Below, piece by piece: positions 9,017 to 40,386 of a DNA stretch of 64,000 bases. The notes under the pieces were generated by a model. That model did not search any database and was not told the DNA's origin. It saw nothing but the letters and a program-made list of their open reading frames with translations. How positions within the stretch are numbered: position 1 is the stretch's first letter; every line of letters starts with the position of its first letter. The DNA comes from Amphiura filiformis (lineage: Eukaryota; Echinodermata; Ophiuroidea; Amphilepidida; Amphiuridae). A program made the position numbers and the translations under genes. The stretch covers positions 589,501-653,500 of the forward strand of contig NW_027305497.1 of NCBI RefSeq assembly GCF_039555335.1, given 5' to 3'.

Positions 9017-9580
9017 ATGGAACCCAATCATATTTTCCCTGAATTTACCGCCGTTGTTTTGGTATATTCACTAATCTTCTGCAATGTGGTATGGTATGCA
9101 ATCGCGGAGATAGAAATTCGCCCTTTTTGGAACGTGACTAGCACTCAAAATGGCACATACTCATGTATTCTCACGAATGACAGTAATGATGAGTATTATC
9201 ACGATTATTATAGCTTATCCTCTCTTAGCAGTGATACAGGTGGTGAAACTTGCAGTGTCCAATTATCCACATCTATTGGATCAGGAGCTTTGATACAAGT
9301 ACCCAAACCAATGTCCACTAACACCTTATTGTACGTAGAGAAACAAGGTGATCTTCTGAATTGCCAAAATAGGTATGTGGTTATTGCAGCAGACAATCCT
9401 TGTTTCATTCCATTTGCCCATTCAAAGCTCCAACTATTTCTGCAGGGTAATACCAGTATCCTCATCAGTGATACATCAAAAAACCAGTCTCTGTCTTTGT
9501 GCCAAGATTCTGATGATGAACAAACGCAATCGGTTTACGAAATAAATAAAAGTTGCTATGGTAGCATGCCAATCAGATAA
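9017..9580 (+). pseudogene. Truncated LRR-GPCR (receptor copy 1, N-terminal fragment)
   Basis: The first 178 codons match receptor copy 2 almost residue for residue: the hydrophobic leader (FTAVVLVYSLIFCNVVWYAIA), then the Cys- and Asn-glycosylation-rich domain with ETCSVQL, LLNCQNRY and NPCFIPFAHSKLQLFLQGNT. At about 9549 homology stops and block A' begins. The frame then runs 10 foreign codons to a stop at 9578-9580. All LRRs and the seven-helix domain are missing, and no remainder of the gene is seen between 11.2 and 13.1 kb. The ATG at 9017 is chosen because the equivalent Met is the only start available in copy 3. An in-frame ATG at 8984 also exists. A secreted short product cannot be excluded. 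Confidence 0.8.
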
Positions 9581-11222
9581 TTATTAATTTCCAAATTTGT
9601 TAATAAAATCTTAAATTTAACAATAAGCATGACAATAATTGCGGGGTTTTAGAAAGGATTATTATATTAAACAATTTTATTCCTAAGAAAGTCAATATTG
9701 CTCTCACAGCCACTCAATGCTATTGAACTCACAGCCACTCAATGCTATTGAACTCTCATGGTCGTTTTATATGAAAATAGCTAAAATTGTGTTGGCATTT
9801 TTCAAAGTTCGGTTCATCTTACCCATCATGTCCATAGTATTCATGGAGCAAGATTTATTTATTTAATATTATTTTTAAATCATATTTATACAGGGTTATC
9901 CTTCAAGCTAAAATCTGCTATTACAGGGGCCCTATTTCCTAAAATACAATGTGCACAATCAGTGGCGGATTTTAATGAAAAGGGCCCTTAAAGTATCCCA
10001 GGCCCCATGTTAAGTATTTCAATTCAGTGGCGTGCCTGACCTTTTGTCGTGGGGGTCGAGGTGATAGAGAAAATAATGCACAGTGAGCCACGGGCTACAT
10101 ATCAATTTGTAAGCGCTCTTTAGCAAACTCATAGTCAGGGACAAACGATTTGCGCAGACAAAAATACCAAATTGCACGAAAAAAATAGCAAATTGCGCGG
10201 AGATTGTGCGGAACTTTTATACATAAAACACTCATATGAAACACAGGAAAAGGAAAAAACATATCAAAATATGAAATTATACACCGTGTCATATAGGATT
10301 ATTGTGGCATTTTTTGACCATTTTTTAGGCATTTTGGCGGTCATTTTGAAAAGCGCCCTCTATCTGGAGTTTACAACCGCTTGACAAGTTGCATACGTTT
10401 TGCATTCTTCAAAGTACAAAACAAATACACTTTCAGATCATATTGCCCGTGACTTGGTCACGGAATCACTATTTTTTTCACCACTACTATACATCCCCAA
10501 CTATTCAATGTGCGAACAAAATGACCATTTTCGTTCACGTTTCATAGTACATTGCGCAGAAAAACTTAAATTTCGCAGGAGCAAATGAAATTGCGCGGAG
10601 AAAGGAAAATTTCGCGGTGCGTCGCGGGATTTCGCGCCGCAAAAATCGTTGGACCCTGCTCATTAACAGGCGAAATTTGTTTGCACAAGATTTGCAATTT
10701 AAAGAGAATTGGCCATTGCTCATTGAAATGAAGCTAGTGTCGTAAAAACTCGATAGTTAGCATAATTATGTGCTCACTATCAAGCGCTTTTAAAACACCT
10801 ACATCTATTTTATACTCAACCGTTTGGAATAAGTGTAGAGGCTAGACTTATAGTGCTTGGAAATATCTGTGTACTCGGGATTTATCGAGGTGGAAACTGT
10901 GCGTAGATGCATTTCTAACAGCGTGTTTATAGTGAATATACCGCATTTTGAGTATACCGTATACGATAATCCTTGTATATGTACCGATACTCTTGCTGTT
11001 TATAGTGAGATACAGTTACCGCACAAATTATATACCAACTAACATTATCGTACATTTGCAATGACCCCGAGGTCACACGGGTAATGTGTAAATATTGTGG
11101 CGCGAGCTATAAACAGCCAATTCAACAGCATGATCATGGCGGCGAACATGTAGCTTCTGTTTTGATAACTCTTGGGGTGAGAATCGTTCCGAATGTCCTG
11201 CACGCATTCTTCGCATCATGAA
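9551..11222. repeat. Duplicated block A' (right copy)
   Basis: Begins AGTTGCTATGGTAGCATGCC and follows block A (from about 5151) through the GCGCGGA-rich part and the GTGTTTATAGTG part to CATCATGAAGAAGCTT. It interrupts receptor copy 1. The start also matches 27215 onward, so block A behaves as a dispersed repeat as well as part of the local duplication. It lacks the roughly 560-base internal segment of block A. Confidence 0.75.
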
Positions 11223-11400
11223 GAAGCTTCTACTTCCGGTAATACCGCACACAATTTATACTGGTGTGTTTATAGTGCAAATATCTCGCGACAATATCCT
11301 TCGATTGTTTATAGTGGGCAAGTATCCGGATAATTTCTGACCGGATAGAAATTATACCGCAATATACCGCACATCTGCTCCCACTATAAACACGCTCTAA
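10912..11400. mobile_element. MITE-like element with AGCGTGTTTATAGTG ends
   Basis: AACAGCGTGTTTATAGTG near 10917 and CACTATAAACACGCTCT near 11379 are inverted copies. The motif GTTTATAGTG also recurs internally (about 10998, 11268, 11309). No coding capacity. In block A the left end is present (about 7029) but the right end is cut at 7345, where block B begins. Confidence 0.5.
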
Positions 11401-12340
11401 GAGAATCGTTTTGTAGCCAAACCTTTTCATATGTTTTAACGTTCGAGCAGTGAGATTAAACATCCGTGCAGTGACAATATATCCGTGCTTAAAATATGCA
11501 GTACAGATGTGTCCATTTTCCGTTTTCTTGAAAACCACATTTGATACGGCCAGATGCATATAAATAACTTTGGGAACGGCGACATTAGATCAGGCGCGGA
11601 CATCACGGGCCCCAACCTTTAAAAAAAGAGAGAGAGAGAAAAAAAGGAAATGGAGGTTCCATGTTTTTGGAAAGGGGAAGCAGCGTGGTAAATAAAAAGG
11701 TAAACTAGGTGGGTCAATGCCCACATAGTATATTTTTTTGCCCACCCAGTCAATTTAGCCTACCCATTGCCCCCAAAATGCCCATCCAGTAAATATTTTT
11801 GCCAAACAAACAATGGGCACCATACAATAATCGTTAAGTTAGCGGACCTGTGCTTGATATATTATCTAAAATATTCAACCTACGCATTTGAAGTAATAAT
11901 TTCTAGATGGAGAAGCAGAAAAATCCTTTTAATGTCATGACAGTATCTCAGCTGGAGGAAGGGTTCCCAGGACCAAAGCCTAAACCCGTCCCAAGTCGGG
12001 AGCATTTGCAGCAGACTGAGTGAACTGACAACAGGATGAAGTATAACCTGGGCTTGATAATACTAACATATTCAAGACTGTGAATGTCCTTAAAACCGTT
12101 GATGCAAATCAAGTCAGGTAGTGGCCACATCCAACAATGGTTGTATCTTTTCATAAAATTCGTCATATTTATTTCATTGAAGTTCAATTACAACTTCGGA
12201 GGCGCAGGGATAATAACATAGTACACAATGATATAGGAAGCTAATACTATTAAAATTATTTTGAGCCATTTCCATACAAAACCTAAAATAATTCAGGGAA
12301 CCCATAAATGAGCCCATAAATTTTGTATTATATTATCTGA
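11401..12340. other. Unassigned sequence between A' and B'
   Basis: Contains an AG-rich run (about 11618-11650) and an unassigned stretch with 'cccacccagt' and 'cccatccagt' motifs (about 11700-11800). No homology to the missing 3' part of receptor copy 1 was seen. Nothing else can be supported. Confidence 0.4.
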
Positions 12341-12920
12341 AATTAAGTCCAGTTCAGTGCACATCTCACGGCACAAGTAACTACAAAACCAAATATAAAT
12401 TTTACTATTGTTACACTACGTATCATCATTTTGTAGAGTTTTAACCCCTTCTTTAATGAAAAGCAAGAACAAGAAACTTATGTTTTGCCTTATATTTACG
12501 ATTAAGTCCAGTTCAGAGAACATCTTATGATGCAGGTAGCTACAAATTTAAATATAAATTTTTACCACTGTTACACTATAGATAATAGCTTTTAGATCTT
12601 GATTCATTGCTAAACATTGTAATGTGAGAATGACAATTAAACACGCATCCGCATACATTATATCTGGTATAATGGTAAACTGTTTGATGAAAAGCATGTT
12701 CAAAAACAGTTTTGCTGTATCTGAAATTAAGTTTAGTTCAGAGCACATCTTACGGCTCATCTTATGTAGCATGATATTAATATAATTTTGCTATTGTTAA
12801 CCTACAGATAAAGCTTTTAGAGGGCTTTTAGAGCTTGGTTCCTTCTTTGGTGAAAAACGTGCTAAACATCGTAATGTGAGAATGACAATTAAACACGCAT
12901 CCGCATAAAATGAAGTTATC
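12341..12920. repeat. Three diverged tandem units of about 150-230 bases
   Basis: Units start at about 12339, 12501 and 12722 with (GAAA)TTAAGTCCAGTTCAG followed by CACATCT..CGG, TATAAATTT..CTATTGTTACACTA and CTTCTTTAATGAAAA-like segments. The later two share GTGAGAATGACAATTAAACA followed by CGCATCCGCATA. Non-coding. Confidence 0.55.
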
Positions 12921-13110
12921 AACTATCCCAGATATCATTATGATTTATAACTTAAATTTTCATTTTAAAATGACTATAAGCTTAAATGAAGAACCTTGAT
13001 CAACATTGTGGATAAAAATTACGTGTACAAAATTGAAGCTAAATAATATAAATATTGTTATTTCATATCACAACAAACGTTATATTCCTGAATCATTTGG
13101 TATACTCATA

Positions 13111-15270
13111 TTATGAGCTATTATGATCAACTCTCAAAATGCGTGATATTCCATCAAGCAATCAGTATTGATGCATTTTAGCCATAGAATATCTTGACGC
13201 ATAAATGATTTGTGCATACTTTGTATAAAATGTTTTAAAATGCTGCATATAATTTTTGAGATCGGCGTGTCTTACAATGTGGCGTGACCAGTCTCATAAT
13301 TTGCTCATGGTGGGCGAGATTATGTAAATTTCCTCTAAGTAGGTTTTTCTTCCTCCACCTCTCTTTCTACATTTTTTCTCTTTGCCTCTTTTCTTCCTCT
13401 TCTTCTATTTCCCTTTTTCTCCTTCTTTATCTTCTCTTTAATCTATTTTTAAATACTAAATTTATCAACCAATTCTTCAACCGACTATGAACTCCATACG
13501 ATCCGCCCTTGCCTATAAAAGATTCATTTAAACCGGGTTTATCGTAATACATGTACAATGTACATTGTACATGTAGATCTATAATGAGCATGATGATTAT
13601 TTTAGAACCAAGTCGGCTATATTGCCTTTTTGTGTTATGGATATAAAAAGAAAGTGGCCGTTTTGACTTCTACTTTGGACATCTTGTTTAGAGCAATAAT
13701 GAACCACTGTGGCATGTTGTTCACTCTTATTATCTTATTTGTTTAACATATATTTTTCCGCATTTTCCGACAGACTTCGTCAGGAACTTGTAAACTTTAT
13801 TGCAATCAACGTCGTCTTTTGGCGTGGACCAGCCTTTTAATAGGACGAGAAGTCACTGTGATCTACGACATCCTCATCTGTCAGTGTCAAGGTGTAAAAA
13901 TATGTATGCGTGTACATTCATTACATGACCTTTGTATGTGTTTCATTAAAAAAAAAACACATTCAACCAAATGAGGTAAAATTTTGATCGATTGTGTTTA
14001 ACGGAAGTTACTGAACACTTTCATTTTAGAGGAGACCATTTTGCCTCAAATCAATGACTTCATTTTCTTATCAAATAGAGATTTGCACCAGTAGTGAACG
14101 AAAACAGTGTAAGTGATCAGTCGTAAGCAGATGCATTATCAGAAGAATTAAAGTACGAAGCCAGGGTGTATATATGAACAAATAAGCGTTACCCTGATTG
14201 TAACTGACAGCGAGATCATTGTCATCTACCGCATGTGCCTCGCAATGCAAACACGGTAATATAATATCATTGTTCAATTATTTTGCCTCCACCTGTAATC
14301 AACCCTGGACCTCTTGTACCAGAGTCAAAGAACCACTGTGGCAGACTGCCCACTAATTATATAATTTTCCGGCAGATTTGTGAACATACAGCTTTACACA
14401 ATGAACCTCACCTTTCATCATGGATCCAATCCAACCGTTTAATTTTACGAAAATTCAATACACTCTAAAACATTATCACCTGTCAGCAGGGATCTACACG
14501 AAGGGATAAGCATCCTAGACTGCTGCCCTCATTCGGAATATGTATCCTAGGTCTAGACAATAGGCGGATTAGCGGCCATTTTGTCTTCGACATGATTTTA
14601 TTCACGTGTCCTTATACTTTAGTACGCAAATATATAAGTTAACAGGTTTACAATATTAAAATTATATTTTGAATATACAATATATTCTGTAGTAAATCGA
14701 TCAAATGACGGTGATTGTTCAGGTATTAGGCCTATATGCTTGATAAAATTAAACTGTCTGACCAGCTAGTATTAGTGATTCCAGACACTCCACGTACCGT
14801 GTTGCGAAGGTGGAGGAGACTAAAGCTGTATTGACGAACACGCATGCGTTAAAAAATATGTAGCTTAGGTCGAACAATAGCGTGACGTAGTTTCCGGCAT
14901 TGTTCCTATGCACTTTCACCCTCCTGCTGTCAGTAGAAAGTTCTATAATTTTGTTATAATTGCACACGCATACAGTTACTTTTGTATGTGTAAGAAACAA
15001 AAACTGATTGTTAACGGTATTCAACATCATTACCAAGCAAGCAACTTACGTGGATAAGTATGACTATTAGTATGCAGGTTAACATTTTGTGTACACCAAA
15101 TATAAACTCGAATGCCTAAATCATACAGGTTTGTCTTTTGTTATTAGTTACAGATAATGTCAAAAAGGTAGCTAAGTACAAGAAACACTTTTAAATTTAT
15201 TATTCATGTTATAAATACATGTAAGAATATGTAATTGGGGTTTTTTTTATGTCAGGGCAGCAGAATAATT
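13111..15270 (+). promoter_or_regulatory. Upstream region of receptor copy 2 (block B')
   Basis: Matches block B before copy 1 from GAGCTATTATGATCAACTCT onward. It contains a long pyrimidine tract (about 13345-13450) and an AATGTACATTGTACAT palindrome (about 13556-13571) not seen in B. The last 150 bases are conserved in all three receptor copies. The run of T followed by ATGTCAG just before the start codon looks like a splice acceptor, which would put a non-coding exon upstream. This is inference only. Confidence 0.45.
13120..13690 (+). repeat. Left inverted repeat flanking receptor copy 2
   Basis: The parts 13120-13345 and about 13580-13690 reappear inverted at 18998-19232 and about 18885-18965. 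Landmarks shared in complement are GATCAACTCTCAAAATGC, ATGCTCATGGTGGGCGGGATTATG-like text (here TTGCTCATGGTGGGCGAGAT) and CCTTTTTGTGTTATGGATA. The copies are diverged (my estimate by eye is around three quarters identical). Confidence 0.6.
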
Positions 15271-18069
15271 ATGGAACCCAATCGTATTTCCTCTAAATTT
15301 ACCGCCGTTGTTTTGGTATATTCACTAATCTGTCGCAATGTGGTATGGTATGCAATCGCGGAGATAGAAATTCGTCCTTTTTGGAACGTGACTAGCGCTC
15401 AAAACGGCACACACTCATGCCTTCTCACGATTGCCGGTAACGATGAGTATTATCACGATAATTATAACTTATCCTCTCTTAGCAGTGATACAGGTGGTGA
15501 AACTTGCAGTGTCCAATTATCCCCATCTATTGGATCAGGAGCTTTGATACAAATACCCAAACCAATGTCCCCTAACACCTTATTGTACGTAGAGAACCAA
15601 GGTGATCTTCTGAATTGCCAAAATAGGTATGTGGTTATTGCAGCAGACCATCCTTGTTTCATTCCATTTGCACATTCAAAGCTCCAACTATTTCTGCAGG
15701 GTAATACCAGTATCCTCATCAGCGATACATCAAAAAACCAGTCTCTGTCTCTATGTCAAGATTCTGATGATCAGACGCAATTTGTTTACGAAATAAGTGA
15801 AATAAGTCATTGTCCTACTACTGAATTCAACCATACTATTTCATGTTACCAATCCTCTGGTCACATTTGTTCATTTGAGAAGTCTCCATCCAATTGCAAT
15901 GCTGTACTTGGGAAAGAATATGTTGATTTCAAGTGTCATGATGAACCTTTACAATCAAGCTACAAATCTCTGTTAATCTATCTCAATAACATTATTATAT
16001 TGGATATCTCAGGGCAGAATATTGTAGAGCTAACTGAAAATGCGTTTATCAATATGAAACGGTTCGATAAGCTTTATATTAATAATAACAGATTATCGAG
16101 GATACATTCTCAAGCTTTCAAAGGTATAAAAAATCTCAAAGGCCTGTACATACATTTTAATCAGGTGAACACGCTTGATGCCCACGTGTTTAATGAGTTA
16201 GCTAGTCTACATATTCTAGTTCTTGGGTTCAACAACTTGGCAATCTTGCAAGCTGGCTTGTTCAGTAGCTTGATAAACCTTCAATGGCTGGATCTTTATG
16301 GAAACCAGCTTACTTCGTTAGATGCGAATTTGTTGAAGGAAACCAGTAAGTTGACTACCCTGTATCTGGGTATCAACCAGCTTACTTCATTACATGCGAA
16401 TTTGTTGAAGGAAACCAGTAAGCTGACTCATCTACTTCTTGATGATAATATGTTGCAGCATCTACCATTGCAATTGTTTCGGGGCCTGCGTAATTTACAG
16501 GTTCTCATTGTGAGCGAAAATAAGTTAGCAAATGTAAGTTATGATTTATTTTGGCAGATGAGAAACTTGACAGCTCTCAGTTTGCGTAAAAACGAGCTGA
16601 CACAGTTGAATCACAGAATATTCGAGGGCTTACGTAACTTACAGTTGTTGTATTTGGACGATAATCAAATTCATGTCTTAGATCTTCACATCTTCAAAGA
16701 CACGGTAAGCCTCCGTTTACTAGAATTGTCTGGGAACCATTTAACAAACATTCCAATTATTAACAACTTGAATCATCTCGCTCTTATTGGCTTACGAGAA
16801 AACAAATTGACTATGATAGATAATCGTACATTTATTGGCCTCCCAAATCAGACTGAAATAGTTGTAAGCCAAACAGAAATTTGTGAATGTTATGTACCAA
16901 GTGATATTATTTGTAGTGCTCTAGACGTGCGATCACCATATCTGACATGTGATAGAATATTGTCAGATAGAGTACTGATGGTTATGATGTGGCTTATTGG
17001 TTTGAATGCATTGGGTGGAAACTTATTTGTATTAAGCCGTAAGAATTCAAAATCTGAAAAGAACAAAGTCCAAACCTTCCTGCTAAATAATCTGGCTATA
17101 TCTGATTTACTCATGGGCATCTATATGCTAATTATGGCATCTGCTGACATTTACTTTGGTGACTATTTTCCGATGCAAGCTGAGACTTGGAGATCTGGTA
17201 TTACCTGCAAAATTGCTGGTGCGATGTCTATTCTATCCAGTGAAGCTTCTGTGTTCTTTGTCACATTGATAAGTATTGACAGATTCATTAACATTCGATT
17301 CCCGTTTTCTCGTCGCAAGATGGGAACAAAAGCATCAGCTGTGATAGTTGTATTACTTTGGCTTATCTCTCTTGCATTAGCGACTATTCCCTCTGTTTTA
17401 GCTGGGGTCAGTTATAAATTTTATGATATCTCTCACGTGTGCATTGGACTTCCTTTGTCTCAGCTTGAATTGTTCTCAAAGCAAAGTTCAAGTGAATGGA
17501 TTAGTGGATACGGTTTTAACTATGAGAAGCTCGTTGTCAAATCTAAATCCCTCGGTCATGTTCCCGGTTTGTATTATGCAACAGCAATGTTTCTAGGTCT
17601 TAACGGGATTTGCTATCTTGTCATAGCATTTTGTTATGGGGAAATTGTAAGATTTGTTTTCAAGTCATCAAAACGCGCCGGGCTTAACAAAGATGTCAAA
17701 GAGCAAATCAGAATGACTACCAAAGTTGCAGCAATTGTTCTGACAGACTTCTTATGTTGGGCGCCGGTTATCGTGCTCGGTATCCTGGTGCAAGTTGGTG
17801 TACTGACCTTACCTCCCTCTGTATTTGCGTGGTCTGTGACGGTTATATTACCCATAAATTCTGCAATCAACCCATACCTGTACACTATCGCAGCTCTTAT
17901 TAGTAAGCGTCGTAAACAGGCACAAGTATCACCGACTGAAAATCAGCTAGAAAATACATCTAATACTCAAAGTACACAACTACAAACTATCTCTAGGATG
18001 CAGCACCGTAATATCCAGAGGGACACAGGCATTCCTGGTACGTCAAATGACGCTGAATCTAACGTATAA
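15271..18069 (+). CDS. Leucine-rich-repeat G-protein-coupled receptor (LGR / GRL101-like), intact copy 2
   Basis: A 932-codon receptor in one exon. Residues about 10-30 form a hydrophobic leader. Residues 31-230 are a Cys-rich, heavily N-glycosylatable domain that I do not recognise; no LDLa module is evident. Residues about 240-525 hold around 11-12 leucine-rich repeats with LxxLxLxxNxL spacing, including two near-identical 24-residue modules at 345-392. A Cys hinge (CECYVPSDIICSALDVRSPYLTC, in two parts) precedes seven helices from about 567. GPCR landmarks are GLNALGGN in TM1, NNLAISDLL in TM2, C646 and C724 as the likely TM3-ECL2 disulfide, DRF (670-672) replacing DRY, DFLCWAPV in TM6 and NPYLY (867-871) in TM7. 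The tail is short and ends DAESNV. It probably signals at the plasma membrane through G proteins. Type C LGRs bind relaxin-like peptides, but the ligand here is unknown. An alternative in-frame ATG is at 15235. Confidence 0.9.
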   Translation: MEPNRISSKFTAVVLVYSLICRNVVWYAIAEIEIRPFWNVTSAQNGTHSCLLTIAGNDEYYHDNYNLSSLSSDTGGETCSVQLSPSIGSGALIQIPKPMSPNTLLYVENQGDLLNCQNRYVVIAADHPCFIPFAHSKLQLFLQGNTSILISDTSKNQSLSLCQDSDDQTQFVYEISEISHCPTTEFNHTISCYQSSGHICSFEKSPSNCNAVLGKEYVDFKCHDEPLQSSYKSLLIYLNNIIILDISGQNIVELTENAFINMKRFDKLYINNNRLSRIHSQAFKGIKNLKGLYIHFNQVNTLDAHVFNELASLHILVLGFNNLAILQAGLFSSLINLQWLDLYGNQLTSLDANLLKETSKLTTLYLGINQLTSLHANLLKETSKLTHLLLDDNMLQHLPLQLFRGLRNLQVLIVSENKLANVSYDLFWQMRNLTALSLRKNELTQLNHRIFEGLRNLQLLYLDDNQIHVLDLHIFKDTVSLRLLELSGNHLTNIPIINNLNHLALIGLRENKLTMIDNRTFIGLPNQTEIVVSQTEICECYVPSDIICSALDVRSPYLTCDRILSDRVLMVMMWLIGLNALGGNLFVLSRKNSKSEKNKVQTFLLNNLAISDLLMGIYMLIMASADIYFGDYFPMQAETWRSGITCKIAGAMSILSSEASVFFVTLISIDRFINIRFPFSRRKMGTKASAVIVVLLWLISLALATIPSVLAGVSYKFYDISHVCIGLPLSQLELFSKQSSSEWISGYGFNYEKLVVKSKSLGHVPGLYYATAMFLGLNGICYLVIAFCYGEIVRFVFKSSKRAGLNKDVKEQIRMTTKVAAIVLTDFLCWAPVIVLGILVQVGVLTLPPSVFAWSVTVILPINSAINPYLYTIAALISKRRKQAQVSPTENQLENTSNTQSTQLQTISRMQHRNIQRDTGIPGTSNDAESNV

Positions 18070-18248
18070 GTAGGTGTATCGAAGAGTGCCATGAATCAAT
18101 AGCTAGCTTTTAATTCACTGAAAGCCTTTCGATTTATATAAGATGTACACTCATATATCAAAAGTGTATAGGCCCTACTTACCTGATCTGAGATGTCTTT
18201 TAAATTGTGTCCTTGACCTTCCGAGGTTTAGCAAGTTATTGAAGACTA

Positions 18249-18518
18249 CAATCCCCGAAATATGTCCTTGAAACGCTTTAGGCACCTTGAATGAAATCAA
18301 AAGTGTATTTTTTATGTGGATAAAAATATTCAATATTTGGAATTAGAAGAATGCTGGGCCATCAATTAACACTTTTCCTTCCCCCCCATCATTCAATGTT
18401 GCGACACTTTGGAGACACGCTGAACACATTTGCACATTTCAACATTGCACGGGGGAGTGGGGGATTTATTTTCCCCTATAAAGACGCTTTAATGTTTCAA
18501 GACATATTTCGGGGATTG
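18249..18518. mobile_element. MITE with TA target duplication in the 3' flank of receptor copy 2
   Basis: The inverted ends CAATCCCCGAAATATGTC (18249) and GACATATTTCGGGGATTG (ending 18518) are flanked by TA on both sides (18247-18248 and 18519-18520), as in Tc1/mariner-type insertion. The corresponding flank of copy 3 (about 35335-35365, GACTACATTTAGCTACAGCTAG) lacks the element and so acts as an approximate empty site. No coding capacity. Confidence 0.65.
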
Positions 18519-18884
18519 TAGGTAGCTAGTTATATATATCCCAATTAGAGTACAGATATTATACGGAAGTCCCGGGACGGAAGTCATAAATGGGATAGGT
18601 TTATACGCCAATCAAACATTTTTAGGGTTAAATGGCGGGAGTCACTCTCTGACACGAGCTATTTTAAGAGGGGAAAGTTATTGCACGCCGCGGCGCTCCG
18701 GCAAATGGAAAATTTCCGGGCAGACTGTCAGTGTGTCGTCATTAGCAAAGCGTGGAGTGGGTGGCTGTTTTAGACCAGTTAGAGGTGGGGGAGGGGGACT
18801 TTCAAAAGGATCACCAAATTTGTAAGTATAGTCAAGAATTGAACTTAGTGCACAATTTTACACTATGATTGCTTTAAACAAAAA

Positions 18885-19232: not shown

Positions 19233-19666
19233 TACCAGTAAAGTATATACAATGATGAATATTATGATGATATATTGTTGGTCATGATATGATTTCATTA
19301 ATTAACCTTCATTAATTTGGTTGTGTTTATTCACACGAAAATAAAACGGTCAAATATGGTTGTAAAGTATATGTAGTAATTTATCGTACACATTTTACTC
19401 TATCAGAAGTTACGTGCAGCAACAGGTCAAAGGTCAATTTCCAAGTTGTAAATATATAATTATAGCACAAACTACATGTACATTGAAACTTATGATGTTA
19501 TTGTAAGCTATCATGTAAAATAAGTAGTGATTATAATTTATTTATCGTAACGTACATTATTTATTATATACTATCATAAGGTAAATTGTTATTTCATAAG
19601 CTTCTGATTTACTGTAAAATCAACTGGGAAGCCAGTTTCCCGGGAAAGTGGATCAGATGCTCACAT

Positions 19667-22532: not shown

Positions 22533-22646
22533 AGCTAAAGCCACCTTCCATCACCGACATTTAAACGTTTTCTGACAACCTTGAGATCCATCACCAATAA
22601 ATTAATATGTATAATGACTACGTCAGCATACCACACGTTCTTCAAT

Positions 22647-23459: not shown

Positions 23460-24141
23460 AGTGTAAAATATGCATGAACAGTGGACTTCGGGTATATATA
23501 TAAATGCGCTTTTATAAATGCGCACGTGACATCTACAAGTCGCCATACCGTGTTCAACGATGTAAGGTACCCGGATGTGCACAAATTCCACACGCAAAAG
23601 TATAGGCGAAAATGACAGGTTACAAGGAAAATTGGTTTTGCAAAATAGTGGCATTGATTGCAAAGGGCAAAATAATTTGACCCGAAACATAAACTCTTTA
23701 TTTGGATTTTCCATTACGGAAAAAAAATATTATGACGGAAAAGCTAGATATAGCTGATTTAAAAAGTTATATTTCATTATTTCCGTGCTAAATGGGCGTG
23801 GCAATTGACCATATTGATGACGAAATGTGATTCTTACTGGCATTAAGGTCAGAACTGGGTAGCTGCCGATGATGTTATTTGATAATGTTTGCACGTAAGG
23901 AACTTAATGGGCTGTCAATTTCTTCGGAAGGAAGGGGTCATGGATTGATTTATTTGGGAGTCAAGATAATTTTAACTCTAATTATAACTTACATTCAGGA
24001 AACTATAACTTTAGCCCTTTTCGGTACAATGACCCTCTCAAACTTATAGGCTAGATGTCCCCGCCCGACCTCCTCAACTTAAACTTACTCATTCGCTCGC
24101 AAATGGACAAAAAAACAAATTCAAATGTGTTTTTAACCACC

Positions 24142-24467
24142 TTTTTGTGTCCCCCATGCTAAATCGGTAATCTGTACACCCTTTGTCACCCTTTGACGTA
24201 CAATTTAGAGTATAAACACGTAGATGACTGTACATGATCTAATCATCCCGGCTGGAAGATGTTGAGGAAGAGTCGTATATTATACATCACGCTCATACGT
24301 TACGTTTTTGTGTCCCCCATGCTAAATCGGTAATCTGTACACCCTTTGTCACCCTTTGACGTACAATTTAGAGTATAAACACGTAGATGACTGTACATGA
24401 TCTAATCATCCCGGCTGGAAGATGTTGAGGAAGAGTCGTATATTATACATCACGCTCATACCTTATA
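24142..24467. repeat. Tandem duplication, two units of 163 bases
   Basis: Units 24142-24304 and 24305-24467 look identical over almost their whole length (TTTTTGTGTCCCCCATGCTA through CACGCTCATAC). A recent duplication or an assembly artefact could explain it. Non-coding. Confidence 0.85.
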
Positions 24468-24991: not shown

Positions 24992-24992
24992 A

Positions 24993-25083
<91 letters not shown>

Positions 25084-25099
25084 AAATAAATAAATAAAC
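24992..25099. repeat. (TAAA)n microsatellite
   Basis: About 25 perfect TAAA units followed by a slightly imperfect end. The apparent protein repeats (YLFI) on the minus strand are the microsatellite translated. Confidence 0.95.
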
Positions 25100-25573
25100 A
25101 TTAGTTGTACATGGGGGGTGCTGTGCAATATTCATGATCCTTTGATATCCTTGCAAATTTATAGCATCGAACCTCCAGCCAATGGTCCTTGCCAGTGCTA
25201 GCCACGAAACAAGGTCACAACTGTAGCCACTCCTTCAATGGTCGCCATTTCAGTGATTGACAGTGATGTAATGCAAATATGGCGCTGGCCATCTGGTCAC
25301 GTGCGCATTTATAAAAGCGCATTTATATATTACAACCGAAGTCTACTGATGAAGGTCGTATTCTTAGGTACCTCAATTTGGTGCGACATGTATCTCATTT
25401 TGAGCACTAGTCAAACATCTTTTAAGCCAATCAATAATCCTATTGTTGAAGAGGATAATTAGCTTCTACCTATGTCTATAGAATTCTTAAATATCTCTAG
25501 TTTTTTTTTTTCTTTGGCTAAATCCTATTCAAGAGGTGGGTTACAAAGCATTGTATTTTTTTCTAGGTTTGTA

Positions 25574-26673
25574 CAGCGTGTCCCAAAAGTAACTTAACAT
25601 TGTGAATTTGCCATATCTCAAATATTTCCTACTTCATACCAAAATGGAGAACATATTCACATAGATTGATCTTTTACAATTATTCTGATACCAAAAACAG
25701 CATTATTGATGACCCCTTGACCTTTCTGTGCGACTGTACATAATGTGTGTATTAAACCCACAAAAGCAAGCTCATTATAAATTATGTTCTTTTGTTCAAG
25801 CACATGAATGATGTGCTTCCCTGAACAATAGAGTTGGTTCACTCCCTGCACACGCTACATTTAGGTAAGAACATTCATGGATTACATGTCCTAGCGTAAG
25901 CGTGAATGCTGTGTTTTAGATTATAATTAGGATATATTGACAATATTAAACTTTACTTTAAAACAATTTAAGTGAAGATGAATTTCCTATAGATCAATGG
26001 ATTCAGATGGTATGGTTCTTTGCCGAGACAACATCGGACAAACTCACTGAAGCAAAGTTTAAGGAACATTTTAATGTAAATTATGCACCCAGCCGAAATA
26101 CAATCAAGCAACTAGTGCAGAAATTCCTATCAACTGGATCTGTTCAAGATCTATCTTGAGCAGGACGTGGAAGAACAGGAAGATCGGTTACAAACATCGA
26201 TGTCATACGAAGAGCGGTGGTGAAAAGCCCAAGACGATCAGTACGTCGACTTTTAATGGAGAACACCGTACCGCATACAACTGTTCATCGAATCCTCAGA
26301 AAAGATCTTAAGCAGTTTCTATATAAAATCCAGATAAAAAGTAAATGAAGATTACGCATTGAAAACAAACAAACAAACAAACAAACAAAATTAAAGCAAA
26401 ATTAAACAAAACAGATTTTAAAACGATAACACGTTATATCGTGTTATCAAGTCTCAAATGACGAGACTTATTTTGCGTTTATAAAAGTGGGTTTTACGGT
26501 ACAGTAGATATCCGTTAATTTCATGCCAAAGGGTCATGACCACATTGGCATGTTTGGTATCATAACATTTCTAAAAGAATTATCTACATACTGTGCAATT
26601 TTTGTAACAACACTATTAACCCAACGCCAGTTATGGCAAATTCACAATGTTAAGTTACTTTTGGGACACCCGG
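25574..26673 (+). mobile_element. Degenerate Tc1/mariner-type DNA transposon
   Basis: Terminal inverted repeats of about 40 bases start CAGCGTGTCCCAAAAGTAAC and end in the complement of CCGGGTGTCCCAAAAGTAAC, flanked by TA at 25572-25573 and 26674-26675. The interior keeps only the DNA-binding part of a transposase and an (AAAC)n stretch near 26367-26390. The catalytic DDE/D half is absent, so the element is non-autonomous. Confidence 0.8.
25976..26348 (+). pseudogene. Transposase DNA-binding fragment (DUF4817-like helix-turn-helix)
   Basis: In one frame the text QWIQMVWFFAETTSDKLTEA is followed by KFKEHFNVNYAPSRNTIKQL, VQKFLSTGSVQDL, then a TGA stop at 26157-26159, then AGRGRTGRSVTNIDVIRRAV and RLLMENTVPHTTVHRILRKD with a stop at 26346-26348. 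The order FxxxFxxxPSxxTIxxLVxKFxxTGSVxD, GRxRT, TTVHRILRKDL is that of the DUF4817 DNA-binding module joined to mariner-type transposases in animals. The internal stop and missing DDE domain show it is dead. Confidence 0.75.
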
Positions 26674-26689
26674 TATAACCAACAATTAA

Positions 26690-27144
26690 AAATGAGAGGA
26701 CATTTCTGAGCCTCGTTGACTAGGGGATGATTTGAAATGACCGCCAATTATGATTGTTTGATATTTATTACCAGCAATGTGGGAAAAGAGGCACATGTAA
26801 AACCGAAAAAGTATACCATTTTGTTGAAGGAGCAGCAAAGGTCAACAAACCATAACCCCGGCGCTTCTGGATATCGTTTGAAGTCAAATGATATACCATT
26901 TTAAAGCTTATGATATATATTTTCTTAACACGAAATAAAATAATATTGACCGGGCGGAATTTACGGCTCATTTATGGTGTACGGTCACAAATTGTAGCAC
27001 TTTGCCGACGAATTGATTCACTCAACCGATCCAGTCAGTCCGAATCACATCTCTATTATCTGGCACGTAAGATAATAGAGATGTGATGATGGAGGTAGAA
27101 CATTTTGAATGACCCTCGTATTTAAGAAAACAGCTTGCATACTT
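26690..27144. other. Unassigned sequence with one long hairpin
   Basis: TCACATCTCTATTATCT at 27045-27061 pairs perfectly with 27070-27086 across an 8-base loop. The remainder of the stretch shows nothing recognisable. Confidence 0.5.
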
Positions 27145-27545
27145 TTTTGGAGATATAAAACAATGTCGCAGAGAGTTTGTAAGGAATCAGGCATAACAAT
27201 GGATAACAACATCTTACAAGTTGCTATGGTAGCATGCCAATCCGATATGACATTCCTAAATTTGTTAATAAAATCTTAAATTTAACAATAAGCATCGCAA
27301 TGATTATGGGATTTTGGAAAAGGTTGTTTTATTTAACAATTTGTTTACTCAAAAAGTCAATATTGCACTCAAGGCTACTCAATACTTGAACACAATAGCT
27401 CTATGGAACTCTCGTGATTTTATATGAAAACAGCCAATATTTTAGTGAACAAATGTCCATAGTATTCACGGAGCAAAATATATTTATCTAATATTGTTTT
27501 TATATATAATGTTATTTTTTAATCATATTTATACGAGCTTTCCTT
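27145..27545. repeat. Partial third copy of block A
   Basis: Follows blocks A and A' from GGAGATATAAAACAATGTCG through TTGCTATGGTAGCATGCCAA to ATTTATACGAGCTTTCCTTG, then diverges. This shows block A is a dispersed repeat. Confidence 0.65.
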
Positions 27546-28321
27546 GACGTAAGGAATTACCTGGACTGATGACAATATCAAGCTTTTCAAATTTACGATT
27601 AAAATACAAAATTTCAAACGATAATATTATTATGAAGTGGATTTAAAATACATTATTGTAAAAATTGGTGCGTGAGTTTCCAGTTATAGTTTTTTCTATT
27701 GAGAATGGGACAATCATGCATGTTGATCATAACAATTGAGTACCGTGATATTAAGTTATGTTAGGTTTTAAATTTAACATAGAAATCACAAAACGATAGG
27801 AAAAAGTTATGTAATTCCAAAATCAAGCATTAAATTTGTTATTCCTCCTAGTTTGTATTTCTTTTCCTGCATTTAAATTATGCAAAATATACATTGATGC
27901 GTGTTGCTTATGTTTCCTGTTGTTTTAGAAACTCTTTAATTGCTCATATCTTTGGAACTAGTTGTTTAATTTCAATGGGGTTTTCTTCAAAATGCAGCTT
28001 TGTAAATGCCTTTTATTATCCTATAAGAAACTGAAAATTGAATATTTTCGAGTTCCAATTGATTTTGCTTAATCTTATCACAAATTGCTAACTAGCTGAA
28101 GTGTAAAAGAGATCAGAAAGGATGAGATACAAAAATTAAGTAATTCCATTTGGCCTCCAAACACCACAATGAAATGTAAATAAATATGTTTATAAAAGGA
28201 AACGTATTTAATGGTTTCTTTGTTACTATTGATCCTGCTTGCATCGGCCACGGTCAGTGAAGCCGATAATTATGTCTCTGCTAAATAGGCTACCAAAAAC
28301 ACGTTTTATAGAATAAATACA
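27546..28321. other. Unassigned AT-rich sequence
   Basis: Nothing recognised on either strand. Confidence 0.4.
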
Positions 28322-28775
28322 TCGCAAAATTACCCCTCCCCCTTAAATATTGGCCATTATTAAAAAACGGGCCATTGTATTACAAATCTGTAACATGCAT
28401 TGCAAGCAGAATTTAATTCAAGCATTTTGATACCTCATTTGATACAATAGCTCAGAAAACAATAAAACACCGGTCAATTCAATGTAGTGAGGTCCAGATT
28501 TGACAGTTGCACTTACAACAATACCAAAAACGCTCAGATAATCTAGACTTCCTTTCATTATACTGAATACAAATCAATAGAATTTACAGCGACTTTCAAA
28601 AATCTAACTTTCAAATCTTGGGTTACATTGATTTAAATGTACGCTGCGACGTCAAAATTTAGGCAATTGCTACAGAAGTATATTCTGCTTCCAACGCATT
28701 TTACAGATTTCTAATACAATAGCTCGTTTTTGAATAATGGCCATTATTTAAGGGGTAATTACTTTTTTTGAGATG
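28322..28775. mobile_element. Palindromic MITE-like element
   Basis: Left arm AAAATTACCCCTCCCCCTTA... ATTGGCCATTATTAAAAAAC (28326-28390) is an inverted copy of the right arm around GAATAATGGCCATTATTTAA and GGGGTAATTACTTTTTT (28700-28770). Arms are about 70 bases, moderately diverged. Non-coding. Confidence 0.6.
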
Positions 28776-29168
28776 TTTATACAGAGTCTGGTATTCTGTA
28801 GCTTACATCGACCAAGAGATATCGACCTCCTTTGGTCGATATGTGGGCGACATTTTTGCTGATTTCCCTACCTTGGTCTTGAGCTAAATCAATATCTTGA
28901 TGGTTAGCAAATTGTTTTTAATATACTCATTAACCAAAGTTCTTGATATCTGATCCAGAAATTGCACTTACTTTGTGTACGTTTCAGCAACACTGTTGCC
29001 TTTGTCAACACTTGATGATGAGTGATTCCTACTGGCAACCGACGCTAGATGTATCTCCAGCGTAGGTCTTGGTGTTGCCAGTTGATTTTCCATCTGGGGA
29101 TTTTCTTGAACCCAGTTCTAGAAACTCATCAAAAATGTGTGAGAGTTGATACTGCCCCTCGTCTCTAT

Positions 29169-29422
29169 TCATGGTGGTGCCCTCCTCTTTCTAATTTCTA
29201 TAGCCTCCTTTATCCAGCGTGTAAATCGTTCTTGTTCCGTGCCAATGATCTCAGCGTCCCCCCATCCAATAACATGATTTTTGTCCACTACGTGATCTGT
29301 TATTGCCGACTTGTTAACTGTTGTAAGAGATTCTTTTCTACCTGCCCTGGTGACTACTGTGCTGTTGACCTTCTCCACTTCCTTTCTGTGTTCTTCGAGC
29401 CGCGTTCCAAATTTTCTCCCAG
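29169..29422 (-). pseudogene. Inverted second copy of the GIY-YIG domain
   Basis: The minus strand repeats the endonuclease C-terminal text (GRKFGTRLEEHRKEVEKVNS, then IGTEQERFTRWIKEAIEIRK) with one residue change (S for P after RKE) and a frameshift at the end (RAPP in place of RGTT). It lacks the SYIGET core. Confidence 0.8.
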
Positions 29423-29964
29423 ACATTAATGTCTCAACCGCAATGAAGCCACACAACACGCTCCGCAGAGAACTGGTTCACCCAAAAGACAAGCGTGATC
29501 CCAACAACTTGACCCAGGCTGTTTACAAGATCCCCTGTTTGAACTGTGATCTGTCGTACATCGGGGAGACTGGGAGAAAATTTGGAACGCGGCTCGAAGA
29601 ACACAGAAAGGAAGTGGAGAAGGTCAACAGCACAGTAGTCACCAGGGCAGGTAGAAAAGAACCTCTTACAACAGTTAACAAGTCGGCAATAACAGATCAC
29701 GTAGTGGACAAAAATCATGTTATTGGATGGGGGGACGCTGAGATCATTGGCACGGAACAAGAACGATTTACACGCTGGATAAAGGAGGCTATAGAAATTA
29801 GAAAGAGGAGGGGCACCACCATGAATAGAGACGAGGGACAGTATCAATTCTCACACATTTTTGATGAGTTTCTAGAACTGGGTTCAAGAAAATCCCCAGA
29901 TGGAAAATCAACTGGCAACACCAAGACCTACGCTGGAGATACATCTAGCGTCGGTTGCCAGTAG
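29422..29964 (+). pseudogene. GIY-YIG endonuclease domain of a Penelope-like element
   Basis: The + strand frame reads VSTAMKPHNTLRRELVHPKD, then IPCLNCDLSYIGETGRKFGT with RLEEHRKE, and further IGTEQERFTRWIKEAIEIRK, MNRDEGQYQFSHIFDEFLEL and a stop at 29962-29964. SYIGETGR..xxRLxEH is the GIY-YIG catalytic signature, preceded by the LVHPKD linker and Cys motif (CLNC) typical of Penelope-like elements. The reverse transcriptase is missing. The frame opens further upstream (29311) only by reading through the inverted left arm. The domain nicked DNA for target-primed reverse transcription. As a 5'-truncated copy it is unlikely to be functional by itself. Confidence 0.8.
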
Positions 29965-30068
29965 GAATCACTCATCATCAAGTGTTGACAAAGGCAACAG
30001 TGTTGCTGAAACGTACACAAAGTAAGTGCAATTTCTGGATCAGATATCAAGAACTTTGGTTAATGAGT

Positions 30069-30762
30069 TTACTCTACCGATCCTGATGAATTTGTTCAAC
30101 CATGTTTTTAATATAATTTATAATTACGCAAGTCGATTCTCTGCTTAAGTTCCTTACTACACAAGAATTATTTTAGTCATAGTGTCAACAACAAATCCTT
30201 TAAAAAGGAATAGTGCGAGGAAATGAGGAACTGTCAAGATAAAGGCGTAGTTGTTACTTCTATTTTCATTTGTTATCATTAGGAGAGGAGTGAAATGTTG
30301 ATTGAAATAACTGAACTAGCAAGGTTGCTGTTAGAAGTTTATTGTTAATAAAAATTGTTGGCCGAGTGATGAATGTCCTTGATATCGTGAAGATTATCTA
30401 ATGTATTTGTGGTATTATTTATGACAATCGTCAATCGGGGGGGATTTTAAGTCACCAGCCCTTACTAATTCTATAACCCCACCTATTTTGGGTGGTAAAA
30501 ATATACCCCTCCCCCCTATTTTGGTCTAAAATTTATATGATCCCCCCCCCCTCCCGTATATTTGAAAAAATGATAGCCCCTTATGATGCTAGATCCAATG
30601 AGAAGATCGAGGATATATAATAAGTATAATTTTAAAATGATTTAAATATTACTGGCATCAAGATAGATTATTTTTCTGAAGGGAAATATATTACTTCCGA
30701 GTTTAATTAATTTTTAATTTCTTATTCATTCAAACTCAGATACTGTTCTCATTTGATAACTT
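30069..30762. other. Unassigned sequence with C-rich runs
   Basis: Contains C-rich tracts and related CCCCTCCCCCCTATTTTGGT text near 30480-30560. No gene recognised. Confidence 0.4.
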
Positions 30763-31630
30763 TTGACGCCAACTGCAAGGTCTTTGTCATCCACTGCATC
30801 GCCTCCACAATTCAAATTCTCCGGTGACGAAGTAAGCGGATCATTGTTAAGTTATTTTGACTCCACCGGTAACGGCCATGGATCTCTTGTACCAGAGCCA
30901 AAGAACCACTGCGCCATGGTGCTCACTAATTACTTTTTCGAGAGATTTTACCAGGAGCTTCCGCTTCATCATCACTAGGATCCACAACATGTTCATCTAT
31001 CAGGCATCAGGGCACCCAATACATTTGTACATTCATTGAATGACCTTAGAAAATTTGGGTACAACTTGAGGTCAAATGTTGCACTACCAGTGTTTAATTG
31101 AGGTTATTGAACTATGCCATTGGGATGAGGCCATTGTGGTCCATAGTGCACGTAACAAATCCAAATGGAGTTTTTACTCTGTCGTTGGAAAGGAGTTCAT
31201 TTCGGCCCAGTCAATGCTGGTCATTTCCATAACAAATGGAACTGTAAGCAAATATTTTAAGCATAAATATTATGGTGATACGACAAAACCAATCAAACAA
31301 GTTCAGATACACGGATACAGAGTGTATTAAAGAGAACAACATAATGTAATATTGTTAACAGTATTTAGCAGCATTTGTTTACGTCAGTAAAGTGTAATTA
31401 GTATTATGCAGGGTGACATTTTATGTGCACCAAACATGAACTCGAATACCAAAATAATGCATGTTTATCTTTTGCATGTTATTAGGTACAGATAATATCC
31501 AAAAGGTAGCTAAGTACTAGAAACACTTCTAATTGGTTATTTACTGATTCGTATTACAAATTCATATAAGTACACACAGATTAACTCTGTCGTGTAACTG
31601 TTTGTTTCATGTCATGATAGCAGAATAATT
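30763..31630 (+). promoter_or_regulatory. Upstream region of receptor copy 3
   Basis: Matches the proximal upstream region of copies 1 and 2: GGATCTCTTGTACCAGAGCC, GAGGTCAAATGTTGCACTA and, close to the gene, CGAATACCAAAATAATGCAT, GGTACAGATAATATCC and CTAGAAACACTTCTAA. The distal part of blocks B and B' (before about 8320 and 14290) is not found here. The open frame at 31076-31330 is not conserved in the other copies and was rejected. Confidence 0.45.
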
Positions 31631-34600
31631 ATGGAAGCCAATCATATTTTCTCTAAATTTGCCGCCATTGTTTTGGCGTATTTACTAATCGTTCGTAATG
31701 TGCAATGGTATGCAATCGCGGATATAGAAATTCGCCCTCTTTGGAACGTGACTAGTACTCAAAACAGCACATGTCTTCTCACAAATGATGAGTATTATCA
31801 CGATAATTATAACTTATTCTCTCTTGGCAGTGATCCGGGTGGTGAAACTTGCACAGTCCAATTATCTACATCTCTTGGATCAGAAACTATGATACAAATA
31901 CCAAAACCAATGTGTCCTGACACATTGTTGTACGTAGAGAAACAAGGTGGTCTTCTAAATTGCCAAAATAGGTATGTGGTTATTACAGCAGACAATCCTT
32001 GTTTCATTCCAATTGGACATTCAATGCTTCGGCTATTTCTGCAAGGTAATACCAGTATCCTCATCAGTGATACATCAATAAACCAGTCTCTGTCTTTGTG
32101 CCAAGAAGATTATGATGATGAGCAAACGCAGTCGGTTTACGAAACAAATGGAATAAGTCATTGTCCTACGACTGAATTCAACCATACTATTTCATGTTAT
32201 TTATTCCCTGGTCACATTTGTTCATTTGATAAATTTCCAACCAGTTGCAATGCCATCCTTGGAAAAGGATATGTAGAGTTCAAGTGTCATGATGACACTT
32301 TGCAACCAAGCCACATATCTCTGATAATCTATCCCGATGGTGTCATTACGTTGGATCTCTCATGGCAGAACATAGAAGAGATAACTGAGAATGCTTTTAT
32401 CACTCTGAAACGATTAGATAAGCTTGATGTAGCATTTAACAGATTATCTAGAATACATTCTAAAGCGTTTACAGGTTTACAATCCCTCGAAGTTCTGGAC
32501 CTAAAGTATAATCAGATAATCACACTTGACGCTCTCGTGTTTGAAGATTTAACCAGCCTACGTGCTTTAGTTCTTTGGGCCAACAACTTGGCAATTTTGC
32601 CAAATGGCTTGTTCAGCAGTTTGGTAAACCTTCAACTACTGGATCTTGATGAAAACCAGATAACTTCACTAGATGGGTATTTGCTGAAGAAAACCAGTCA
32701 GGTGACTACCCTGTATCTGAGTCACAACCAGCTTACTTCATTACATGCGAATTTATTGAGGGAAACCAGTAAGCTGACTCACCTGTATCTGGGATATAAC
32801 CAGCTTATTTCAATAGATGCGAATTGCTTGAATGAAACCAGTCAACTGACGGTCCTGTATCTGAGTAACAATCAGCTTACTTCAATAGATGCGAATTTGT
32901 TGAAGGAAACCAGCCACCTGACTCACCTCTTGCTGAGTTTCAACCAGTTAACCTCATTAGATGCGTATTTGTTGAAGGAAACCAGGCATCTGACCCACCT
33001 GGATCTGTACAACAACCAACTTAACTCATTAGAAGTGAATTTCTGGAATGAAACCAGTGAGCTGAAATTCCTAGGTCTGACTAAAAACCAGCTTACTTCG
33101 TTGGATGCGAATTTATTGAAGGAAACCACTCAGCTAACCATTCTATTTCTGAATGATAATTTGTTGCAGAATCTGCCAAGGCAATTGTTTAGTGCTCTGT
33201 CTGATTTACAGATACTTCGGATTGACAAAAATAAGATTGCAAATATAAACTACGATCTTTTTTGGAAATTGAAACACATGACAGTACTTGGTTTGAGTTA
33301 CAACTATCTTACCACATTAAGTCACAGACTATTTGAAGGAGTGAAGAACTTACAAGCATTGTTTTTGGACTTTAATCAGATTCATGTCTTAGACCATCTC
33401 ATATTCAAGGATACGATAAACCTCAGAGTACTGAATTGTCTGGAAACCAGTTAACTAGTTTCCCAAATATCAACAAACTAAATCAGCTTGCCCACATCGG
33501 CTTACGAGAAAACAGTTTGACTATGATAAATAAGCAAACGTTTGTTGGCCTCTCAAATCAGACTGAAATAGTTGTAAGCCAAACAGAAGTCTGTGAATGT
33601 TATGTACCAAATGATATTCATTGTAGTGCTCTAGATGTGCGATCCCCATATTTAACATGCGATAGATTAATGTCAGATAAGGTGTTACTGGTCATGATGT
33701 GGCTTATTGGTTTGAATGCTTTGGGTGGTAACTTGTTTGTACTGAGCCGTAGGAAATCAAAAAACGACAAAAATAAAGTTCAAACCTTCCTGCTAAACAA
33801 TCTGGCTATGTCTGATTTACTCATGGGCATATATATGCTAATGATTGCATCTGCTGACATTTACTTTGGTGATTATTTCCCGATGCAAGCCGAGACCTGG
33901 AGATCTGGTATTACCTGCAGAATTGCTGGTACCTTGTCAATATTATCAAGTGAAGCTTCTGTATTCTTTGTTACATTGATAAGCATTGACAGATTCATTA
34001 ATATTCGATTTCCTTATTCTCGTCGCAAGTTGAGAAAGAAAGCATCAATTGTAATAGCTGCATTACTATGGCTTGTTTCTCTCGCATTAGCAACTATTCC
34101 GTCTTTTTTAGCTGGAACAGCTAGTTATAAGTTTTATGATATCTCTCACGTGTGTATTGGTCTTCCTCTGGCTCGAGTGGAAACGTTCTATAAGAACGTC
34201 TCAGAGGAAAGGATTCATCCGAATAGCCTTTCCGAGTATAGGAAGCACGTTGTCAACTCTAAATCTCTCGGTCATGTTCCCGGTTTGTATTATTCATCAG
34301 CAGTGTTTCTTGGTCTTAACGGCATCTGCTACTTTGTCATACTACTCTGTTATGGAGAAATTGTACGATTTGTTTACATGTCATCGAAACGCGCCGGACT
34401 TAACAAAGATGTCAAAGAGCAGATCAGAATGACCATAAAAGTTGCAGCAATTGTTCTGACAGACTTCTTTTGTTGGGCGCCTGTTATAGTGCTCGGGATA
34501 TGTGTGCAAGTAGGTGTACTGACCTTACCCACATCTGTATTCTCTTGGACTGTGACGGTTATTCTACCCATAAATTCTGCAATCAACCCATACCTTTACA

Positions 34601-34785
34601 CGATCGCTGCTCTTATTAGTAAGCGTCGTAAAGAGGCACAAGTATCACCGACTGAAAATAAGCAAGAAAATACTCAAAGTACACGACTACAAACCATATC
34701 TAGTATGCAGCAAAGTAAACATGGTGAATCCCAAAAGGACACAGGCATTCCAGGTACGTCATATGATGCTGAATCTAATGTATAA
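31631..34785 (+). pseudogene. Leucine-rich-repeat G-protein-coupled receptor copy 3, frameshifted
   Basis: Same layout as copy 2: leader (FAAIVLAYLLIVRNVQWYAI), Cys-rich glycosylated domain, LRRs, Cys hinge (CECYVPNDIHCSALDV), seven helices with DRF, DFFCWAPV and NPYLY, and tail ending GTSYDAESNV. Between codons 342 and 509 (32654-33157) it has seven 24-residue LRR modules of the form NQLTSLDANLLKETSxLTxL, against two in copy 2. At about 33433 one base is missing relative to copy 2 (CTG-AATTGTCTGG against CTAGAATTGTCTGG), so the first frame stops at 33452-33454 after 607 codons. The second frame continues from LSGNQLTSF to the normal stop at 34783-34785. If the base were present the product would be about 1051 residues. 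Apart from this lesion both halves are open, so a recent mutation or a sequencing error is possible. Confidence 0.85.
32654..33157 (+). repeat. Seven in-frame 72-bp leucine-rich-repeat modules
   Basis: Seven units of exactly 24 codons begin with the Asn of NQ (NQITSL, NQLTSL, NQLISI, NQLTSI, NQLTSL, NQLNSL, NQLTSL) and share LLKETS in the middle. The equivalent place in copy 2 (16303-16446) has two units. The phase is kept exactly, as expected for unequal exchange within an exon. Confidence 0.9.
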
Positions 34786-34800
34786 ATAGGTATAAGCCTT

Positions 34801-40293: not shown

Positions 40294-40295
40294 TT

Positions 40296-40386
<91 letters not shown>

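Follow-up and report, generated by a model that had tools for sequence, protein, structure and literature searches.

A small tandem cluster of LGR-like receptor genes in the ophiuroid Amphiura filiformis

Introduction

How do neighbouring receptor genes come to stand side by side, each with its coding region in a single open exon? The question is raised by a stretch of DNA from the ophiuroid Amphiura filiformis (NCBI RefSeq assembly GCF_039555335.1, contig NW_027305497.1, positions 589,501 to 653,500 of the forward strand), the whole of which (64,000 nucleotides) was analysed and is called the window here. The window contains three + strand copies of a gene for a class A G protein-coupled receptor (GPCR) with a leucine-rich repeat (LRR) ectodomain, and every coding region is one open exon. 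The original prediction had described an intact, a truncated and a frameshifted copy, and had proposed a retroposed founder, subsequent local duplication and a lineage-specific expansion in progress. Our analysis indicates that the locus is likely a small tandem cluster of LGR-like genes with a predicted receptor function, formed by an older and a younger duplication, in which the copies differ in LRR units and one of them, copy 3, has recently been frameshifted. Three points go beyond the original prediction: copy 1 is truncated at a tandem-duplication junction, copy 3 exceeds copy 2 by five LRR units, and the sequence of the copies is mosaic.

Results

Three related genes in the window

The copies and their open reading frames (ORFs) are as follows.

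9017-9580, + strand: copy 1, ORF of 187 amino acids; a hydrophobic leader is followed by some 176 codons of the N-terminal domain, 11 foreign codons and a stop
15271-18069, + strand: copy 2, intact ORF of 932 amino acids
31631-34785, + strand: copy 3 as a whole, frameshifted
31631-33454, + strand: first open frame of copy 3, 607 amino acids; leader, N-terminal domain and LRRs, stopping just past the frameshift
33436-34785, + strand: second open frame of copy 3; last LRRs, hinge, seven-transmembrane (7TM) region and tail, with the first ATG at 33523

Copy 2 consists of a hydrophobic leader, an N-terminal domain of about 235 amino acids that could be assigned to no family, an LRR solenoid, a short Cys-containing hinge, a class A 7TM region and a C-tail. 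Pfam detected LRR_8 (E=2.5e-40) and 7tm_1 (E=7.4e-28) in copy 2, LRR_8 (1.1e-57) in the first part of copy 3 and 7tm_1 (1.4e-25) in its second part, where the ORF at 33523-34785 (+ strand) encodes 420 amino acids. Copy 1 has neither LRR nor 7TM region and gave no Pfam match. Nucleotide identity among the copies was 81-88% in four aligned stretches of 0.8-1.8 kb (E=0.0), far above chance, and the proteins of copies 2 and 3 were 75% identical across 922 aligned residues. About 220-290 bp adjoining the ATG are common to all three copies. The three copies and their common orientation, as had been predicted, are confirmed. The claim that each gene is one exon holds for the coding frames; a 5' untranslated exon may exist in addition, and an acceptor-like CAG or TAG was seen by eye about 10 nt 5' of each ATG.

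When the proteins of copies 2 and 3 were used as tblastn queries (E up to 1), no more receptor remnants were found in the window outside the three copies. A pattern scan of viral and prokaryote collections gave 14 and 24 pattern matches, respectively, none of which was confirmed, as expected for an animal gene.

Frameshift, constraint and extra repeat units of copy 3

The following features set copy 3 apart from copy 2.

33432/33433, + strand: single-base gap of copy 3 relative to copy 2, the sole frame-breaking difference
32774-33133, + strand: residues 382-501 of copy 3, five additional LRR units of 72 nt each that copy 2 lacks

Neither part of copy 3 has any other stop, and of the nine gaps in its alignment with copy 2, eight have lengths divisible by three. 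The ratio of nonsynonymous to synonymous distance (dN/dS) between the two copies was 0.333 overall, 0.443 before the lesion and 0.231 after it, and 0.22 in the 7TM region. The neutral evolution of copy 3 was simulated with 400 runs at each of six substitution rates. The probability that no stop arose was 0.290, 0.077, 0.037 and 0.007 at 0.01, 0.02, 0.03 and 0.05 substitutions per site, respectively, and 0.000 at both 0.1 and 0.2. By these values, any period in which copy 3 evolved without constraint has been brief. Constraint on the gene either persists or was lost recently, or else the lesion is allelic or erroneous. If it arose in sequencing or assembly, or is confined to one allele, copy 3 would be an otherwise intact receptor with a longer LRR domain; consistent with this, the frameshift is the only frame-breaking change across the 1049 codons examined and the rest of copy 3 is under constraint, whereas the base missing after 33432 lies outside any homopolymer. 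We regard this explanation as possible, although the less likely one. Unless the lesion is an error, copy 3 would be a freshly silenced gene or allele.

The extra LRR units correspond to a 360-nt gap in copy 2 and are 24 residues long. They differ mutually by 14-23 of 72 bases, and nine orthologous units of the two copies by 6-26. As these ranges overlap, they do not show whether copy 3 gained the units or copy 2 lost them. The number of repeat matches was 11 in copy 2 and 13 in the first part of copy 3, which rises to 16 in copy 3 when unit 550 and two units past the frameshift are added by eye.

Domains and receptor class

The LRR solenoid of copy 2 was located and modelled.

15991-16869, + strand: LRR solenoid of copy 2 (residues 241-533), with strands mostly every 24 residues

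In the full-length fold of copy 2, the predicted local distance difference test (pLDDT) score was about 60-88 in the solenoid block and under 50 in residues 1-240 and 534-932; the solenoid is the only part of the protein for which the model is reliable. Copy 2 has both an LRR ectodomain (LRR_8 and the modelled solenoid) and a class A 7TM region (7tm_1), which characterize an LGR, and the top PDB matches of the 7TM regions are LGRs. In the search with the 7TM region of copy 2, RXFP1 scored 128 bits and FSHR 89, and no LGR4-6 chain appeared, in the best 60 of 118 matches. For copy 3, the 7TM region gave RXFP1 with 129 bits and TSHR with 102 (all 10 matches), and the whole copy 2 protein gave RXFP1 with 195 bits and LGR4 with 152 (best 60 of 830). 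No GRL101 chain was among the PDB matches listed, so that types C1 and C2 are not separable by them.

Passages of PMC4561518 and PMC11863921 give the LDLa module as the defining trait of type C LGRs, and the former also mentions about 10 LRRs and a short hinge. No LDLa module was detected: with E values up to 10 allowed, none of the three N-terminal parts matched a Pfam family, and two self-made LDLa-like patterns, used without a positive control, had no match in the six frames of the window. A profile search of the PDB with the N-terminal domain returned nothing at E up to 10, and the fold predicted for this domain from three sequences had a mean pLDDT of 28.8 and was unusable. The domain is cysteine-rich by eye, and a CUB-like fold would be a guess. 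Because no LDLa was found, the copy 2 protein was not placed in type C; judging from its sequence, it is best described as an LGR-like receptor with a relaxin-receptor-like 7TM region. Pfam matches below the cut-off to Rubella_E1 (0.0082 and 0.0032), GPI2 (0.012), CTU2 (0.0021) and FakA-like_C (0.066) were taken as chance.

An older duplication and the question of retroposition

The flanks of copy 3 were compared with those of the other copies.

27149-27505, + strand: copy 3 upstream block, homologous to 5072-5435 (offset 22077, near the offset of the genes)
30840-30961, + strand: copy 3 upstream block, homologous to 8279-8401 (offset 22561), in repeat-like sequence that has additional partial matches
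31344-31630, + strand: copy 3 proximal upstream block, homologous to 8744-9016 (offset 22600)
35265-35345, + strand: copy 3 3' flank, weak match to 18175-18250 of copy 2 (83 columns, 73%)
36618-36658, + strand: copy 3 3' flank, weak match to 19403-19450 of copy 2 (48 columns, 81%)

The three upstream blocks, spread across about 4-4.5 kb, are colinear between the old copies. The long similarity between copies 2 and 3 ends six bases past the stop codon, and the two downstream matches follow in the same order. Since the flanks are colinear between the copies, they point to tandem duplication of genomic DNA; an older event of this kind probably gave rise to copy 3 on the one hand and to the common precursor of copies 1 and 2 on the other. 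The proposal of local duplication is borne out by these upstream blocks, by the two short downstream matches and by an exact tandem junction of the younger copy, which is described below.

A retroposed founder, in contrast, found no support. If the founder, or each copy, were a retroposed spliced mRNA, the open frames would be accounted for: copies 2 and 3 have an unbroken frame through the 7TM region, which in some RXFP/LGR3-type genes is interrupted by phase 1 introns in transmembrane helices 2 and 5, according to part of PMC11863921. However, there is no poly(A)-like run near the stops (no run of at least 10 A or T near either stop; no search for target-site duplications was made), and retroposition of each copy would not yield the colinear 5' flanks and weak 3' flanks that the copies have in common. 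If the founder was an ancient retrocopy, its marks would be gone by now, and thus the evidence opposes only retroposition of each copy. Retroposition is on the whole rather doubtful: it appears unlikely for each copy, and intron loss in the founder is possible.

Two inverted repeats lie near copy 3. The arms of one (34800-34877 and 35084-35161; 78 bp, 92%) stand directly 3' of the copy 3 stop. The other (28925-30068), between copies 2 and 3, is a near-perfect 499-bp inverted repeat (99%) flanking 147 bp; it carries a 173-amino-acid ORF whose GIY-YIG match in Pfam is weak (E=0.014, below the cut-off), and it is probably a fold-back mobile-element remnant. The repeat at 34800-35161 has a translated likeness, seen by eye, to the tail of the ORF at 29443-29964 and probably represents the insertion of a related element into the 3' flank.

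A younger duplication that ends inside a gene

Copy 1 tracks copy 2 up to about 9546 and then continues with the sequence found from 5147 onward.

9546/9547: junction of the younger tandem duplication; the left side matches copy 2 up to about 15797 and the right side matches 5147 onward
5147-9546, + strand: first unit of the younger duplication
9547-15797, + strand: second unit, ending inside copy 2 and longer than the first through unmatched stretches

Accordingly, the truncation of copy 1 is the duplication boundary, and later decay is not needed to explain it. The younger tandem duplication would have begun at a breakpoint upstream of the gene and ended at one within it, leaving a stub (copy 1) ahead of an intact gene (copy 2). 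The synonymous distance (dS) between the coding parts of the two copies was 0.107. Copy 1 would be a non-functional by-product.

The same geometry, 5147-9546 followed by 9547-15797, would be shared by a false duplication in which two haplotypes of one locus were assembled in a row, the contig end of the first being fused to the second, and such an artefact would likewise break off abruptly within a gene. Furthermore, haplotype alleles of a polymorphic species show few-percent differences with insertions, as the units of copies 1 and 2 do. Against this, the whole window contains 0 N and therefore the junction is no scaffold gap (a gapless haplotype misjoin may still have occurred), the proximal upstream blocks of the two copies are about 24% divergent, divergence varies by block from 1% to 22%, and the dS value given above also speaks against alleles. 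An artefactual copy 1 is thus unlikely. Duplicates created by the assembly are disfavoured in general, for copy 1 less firmly so.

A mosaic upstream region

The divergence of copies 1 and 2 is uneven upstream of the genes.

8347-9016, + strand: proximal upstream block of copy 1, about 24% different from that of copy 2 in alignable parts
14334-15270, + strand: proximal upstream block of copy 2, partner of 8347-9016

In alignable parts, copies 1 and 2 differed at 94/2269 sites (about 4%) of the distal unit, with 0 to 16% in individual bins, and at 87/366 sites (about 24%) of the proximal upstream block. The segment 8492-8773 of copy 1 has almost no alignable counterpart at copy 2. We also counted the sites at which two of the three copies agree. 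Copies 1 and 2, copies 2 and 3, and copies 1 and 3 shared 18, 24 and 19 sites upstream, and 46, 11 and 18 in the coding part, respectively (Fisher p=0.00027; nine upstream sites with all three copies different were omitted). As the upstream counts are even, the proximal upstream block does not group copies 1 and 2 more closely with each other than with copy 3. Conversion from a paralogue outside the window is perhaps the simplest account. Synonymous changes between copies 2 and 3 were also uneven, with 33/148 in the N-terminal part and 152/422 in the LRR and 7TM regions (p=0.002). The short C-tail, omitted from this test, had a dS of 0.25, as low as the N-terminal part, and hence the low dS is not peculiar to the latter.

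Other elements in the window

A reverse-transcriptase fragment (RVT_1, E=5.4e-13) at 50888-51268 on the - strand is a remnant like a long interspersed nuclear element. An amino-acid permease gene begins at 53857-54435 (AA_permease_2, E=9.4e-15, covering profile positions 3-125 of 427) and probably continues in further exons. Tandem repeats were observed at 40885-41455 (two units of 285-286 bp, 100% identical, with an 87-bp relative of 89% identity at 31062-31148) and at 24139-24465 (two 163-bp units, 99% identical). In addition, there is a degenerate direct-repeat array with several spacings at 2096-3169, and apparent four-base microsatellites occur on opposite strands at 24992-25105 and 40290-40412.

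Discussion

Taken together, these findings suggest an older tandem duplication at the DNA level and a younger one that ended inside a gene; in a less certain step, the copies may have exchanged or replaced blocks, giving the mosaic upstream region. Copy 2 is predicted to be a working cell-surface receptor directed by its leader. The LRR solenoid would bind a peptide or protein hormone or ligand, the 7TM region would couple to G proteins, and the number of LRR units together with N-terminal divergence would tune ligand choice.

Several points weigh against this interpretation. The matches in the 3' flank are short, and repeat-like sequence surrounds one of the 5' blocks. The overall dN/dS of 0.333, like its regional values, comes from one pair and averages both branches. 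The split into distal and proximal parts was chosen after the bin values were known, and fast evolution of an indel-rich upstream region could explain the mosaic instead of conversion. Finally, part of PMC8286064 reports one orthologue each of three type C receptors, and no expansion, in the ambulacrarians studied.

The most similar known receptors appear to be RXFP1/RXFP2 and the type C1 LGRs (LGR3 and LGR4 of insects), which also combine an LRR solenoid with a class A 7TM region and have the same 24-residue LRRs and, by eye, a short hinge; RXFP1 was the best PDB match of both 7TM regions (for copy 2 in the best 60 of 118). Unlike RXFP1/RXFP2, the copies in the window have no LDLa module that we could find and carry the extra N-terminal domain without a Pfam or PDB match, and unlike some RXFP/LGR3-type genes they lack the two introns mentioned above. 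GRL101 (type C2) is another invertebrate LRR-GPCR with an enlarged N-terminal part, as described in part of PMC8286064; it bears many LDLa repeats, none of which was found in the copies, and the likeness is one of description, not of sequence. The same holds for the expanded LGR-like receptors of Ciona, only two of which, in the cluster, are called LRR-bearing and LGR-like. Sea cucumber OR-like GPCRs are mostly single-exon class A receptors, some of them in tandem arrays, as here, and some cluster with sea-urchin surreal-GPCRs; an LRR ectodomain is not described in PMC7042368, where the word leucine is absent, and this likeness, too, is by description.

Lineage-specific expansion of RXFP1/2-like genes is already published, with an expansion described for early deuterostomes: 27 rxfp1/2-like sequences are mentioned for sea urchin in PMC3310001. 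An expanded LGR group is mentioned for cnidarians in PMC4079206. The cluster is an ordinary animal gene cluster of this published kind. The predicted lineage-specific expansion in progress is a reasonable reading, but its basis is three copies in one window.

The broken copies might also have a function of their own. Broken transcripts of genes without coding introns would probably escape exon-junction-dependent decay. Copy 3 would then secrete a membrane-free 607-amino-acid protein with the N-terminal domain and a long LRR solenoid, and copy 1 the N-terminal domain; both would be soluble decoys for the ligand of copy 2, in a family diversifying by shuffling of repeat units and promoters. We consider this very improbable. 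That copy 3 is an old pseudogene is hardly tenable: it bears one frameshift, but its frame parts are free of stops, whereas a mean of 18 stops arose in the runs with 0.2 substitutions per site, a rate roughly half as large as the dS between copies 2 and 3.

The informative details of the tandem cluster are the intragenic duplication boundary, the variation in LRR units and the upstream mosaic. The locus can be viewed as a snapshot of receptor-family growth, in which a boundary inside a gene produces both a stub and an intact gene at a single stroke, repeat units of the ligand-binding domain come or go, upstream blocks may swap, and one copy is freshly frame-broken or polymorphic. If the genome has many copies without LDLa, the family would bear on the role of the LDLa module in relaxin-type receptors.

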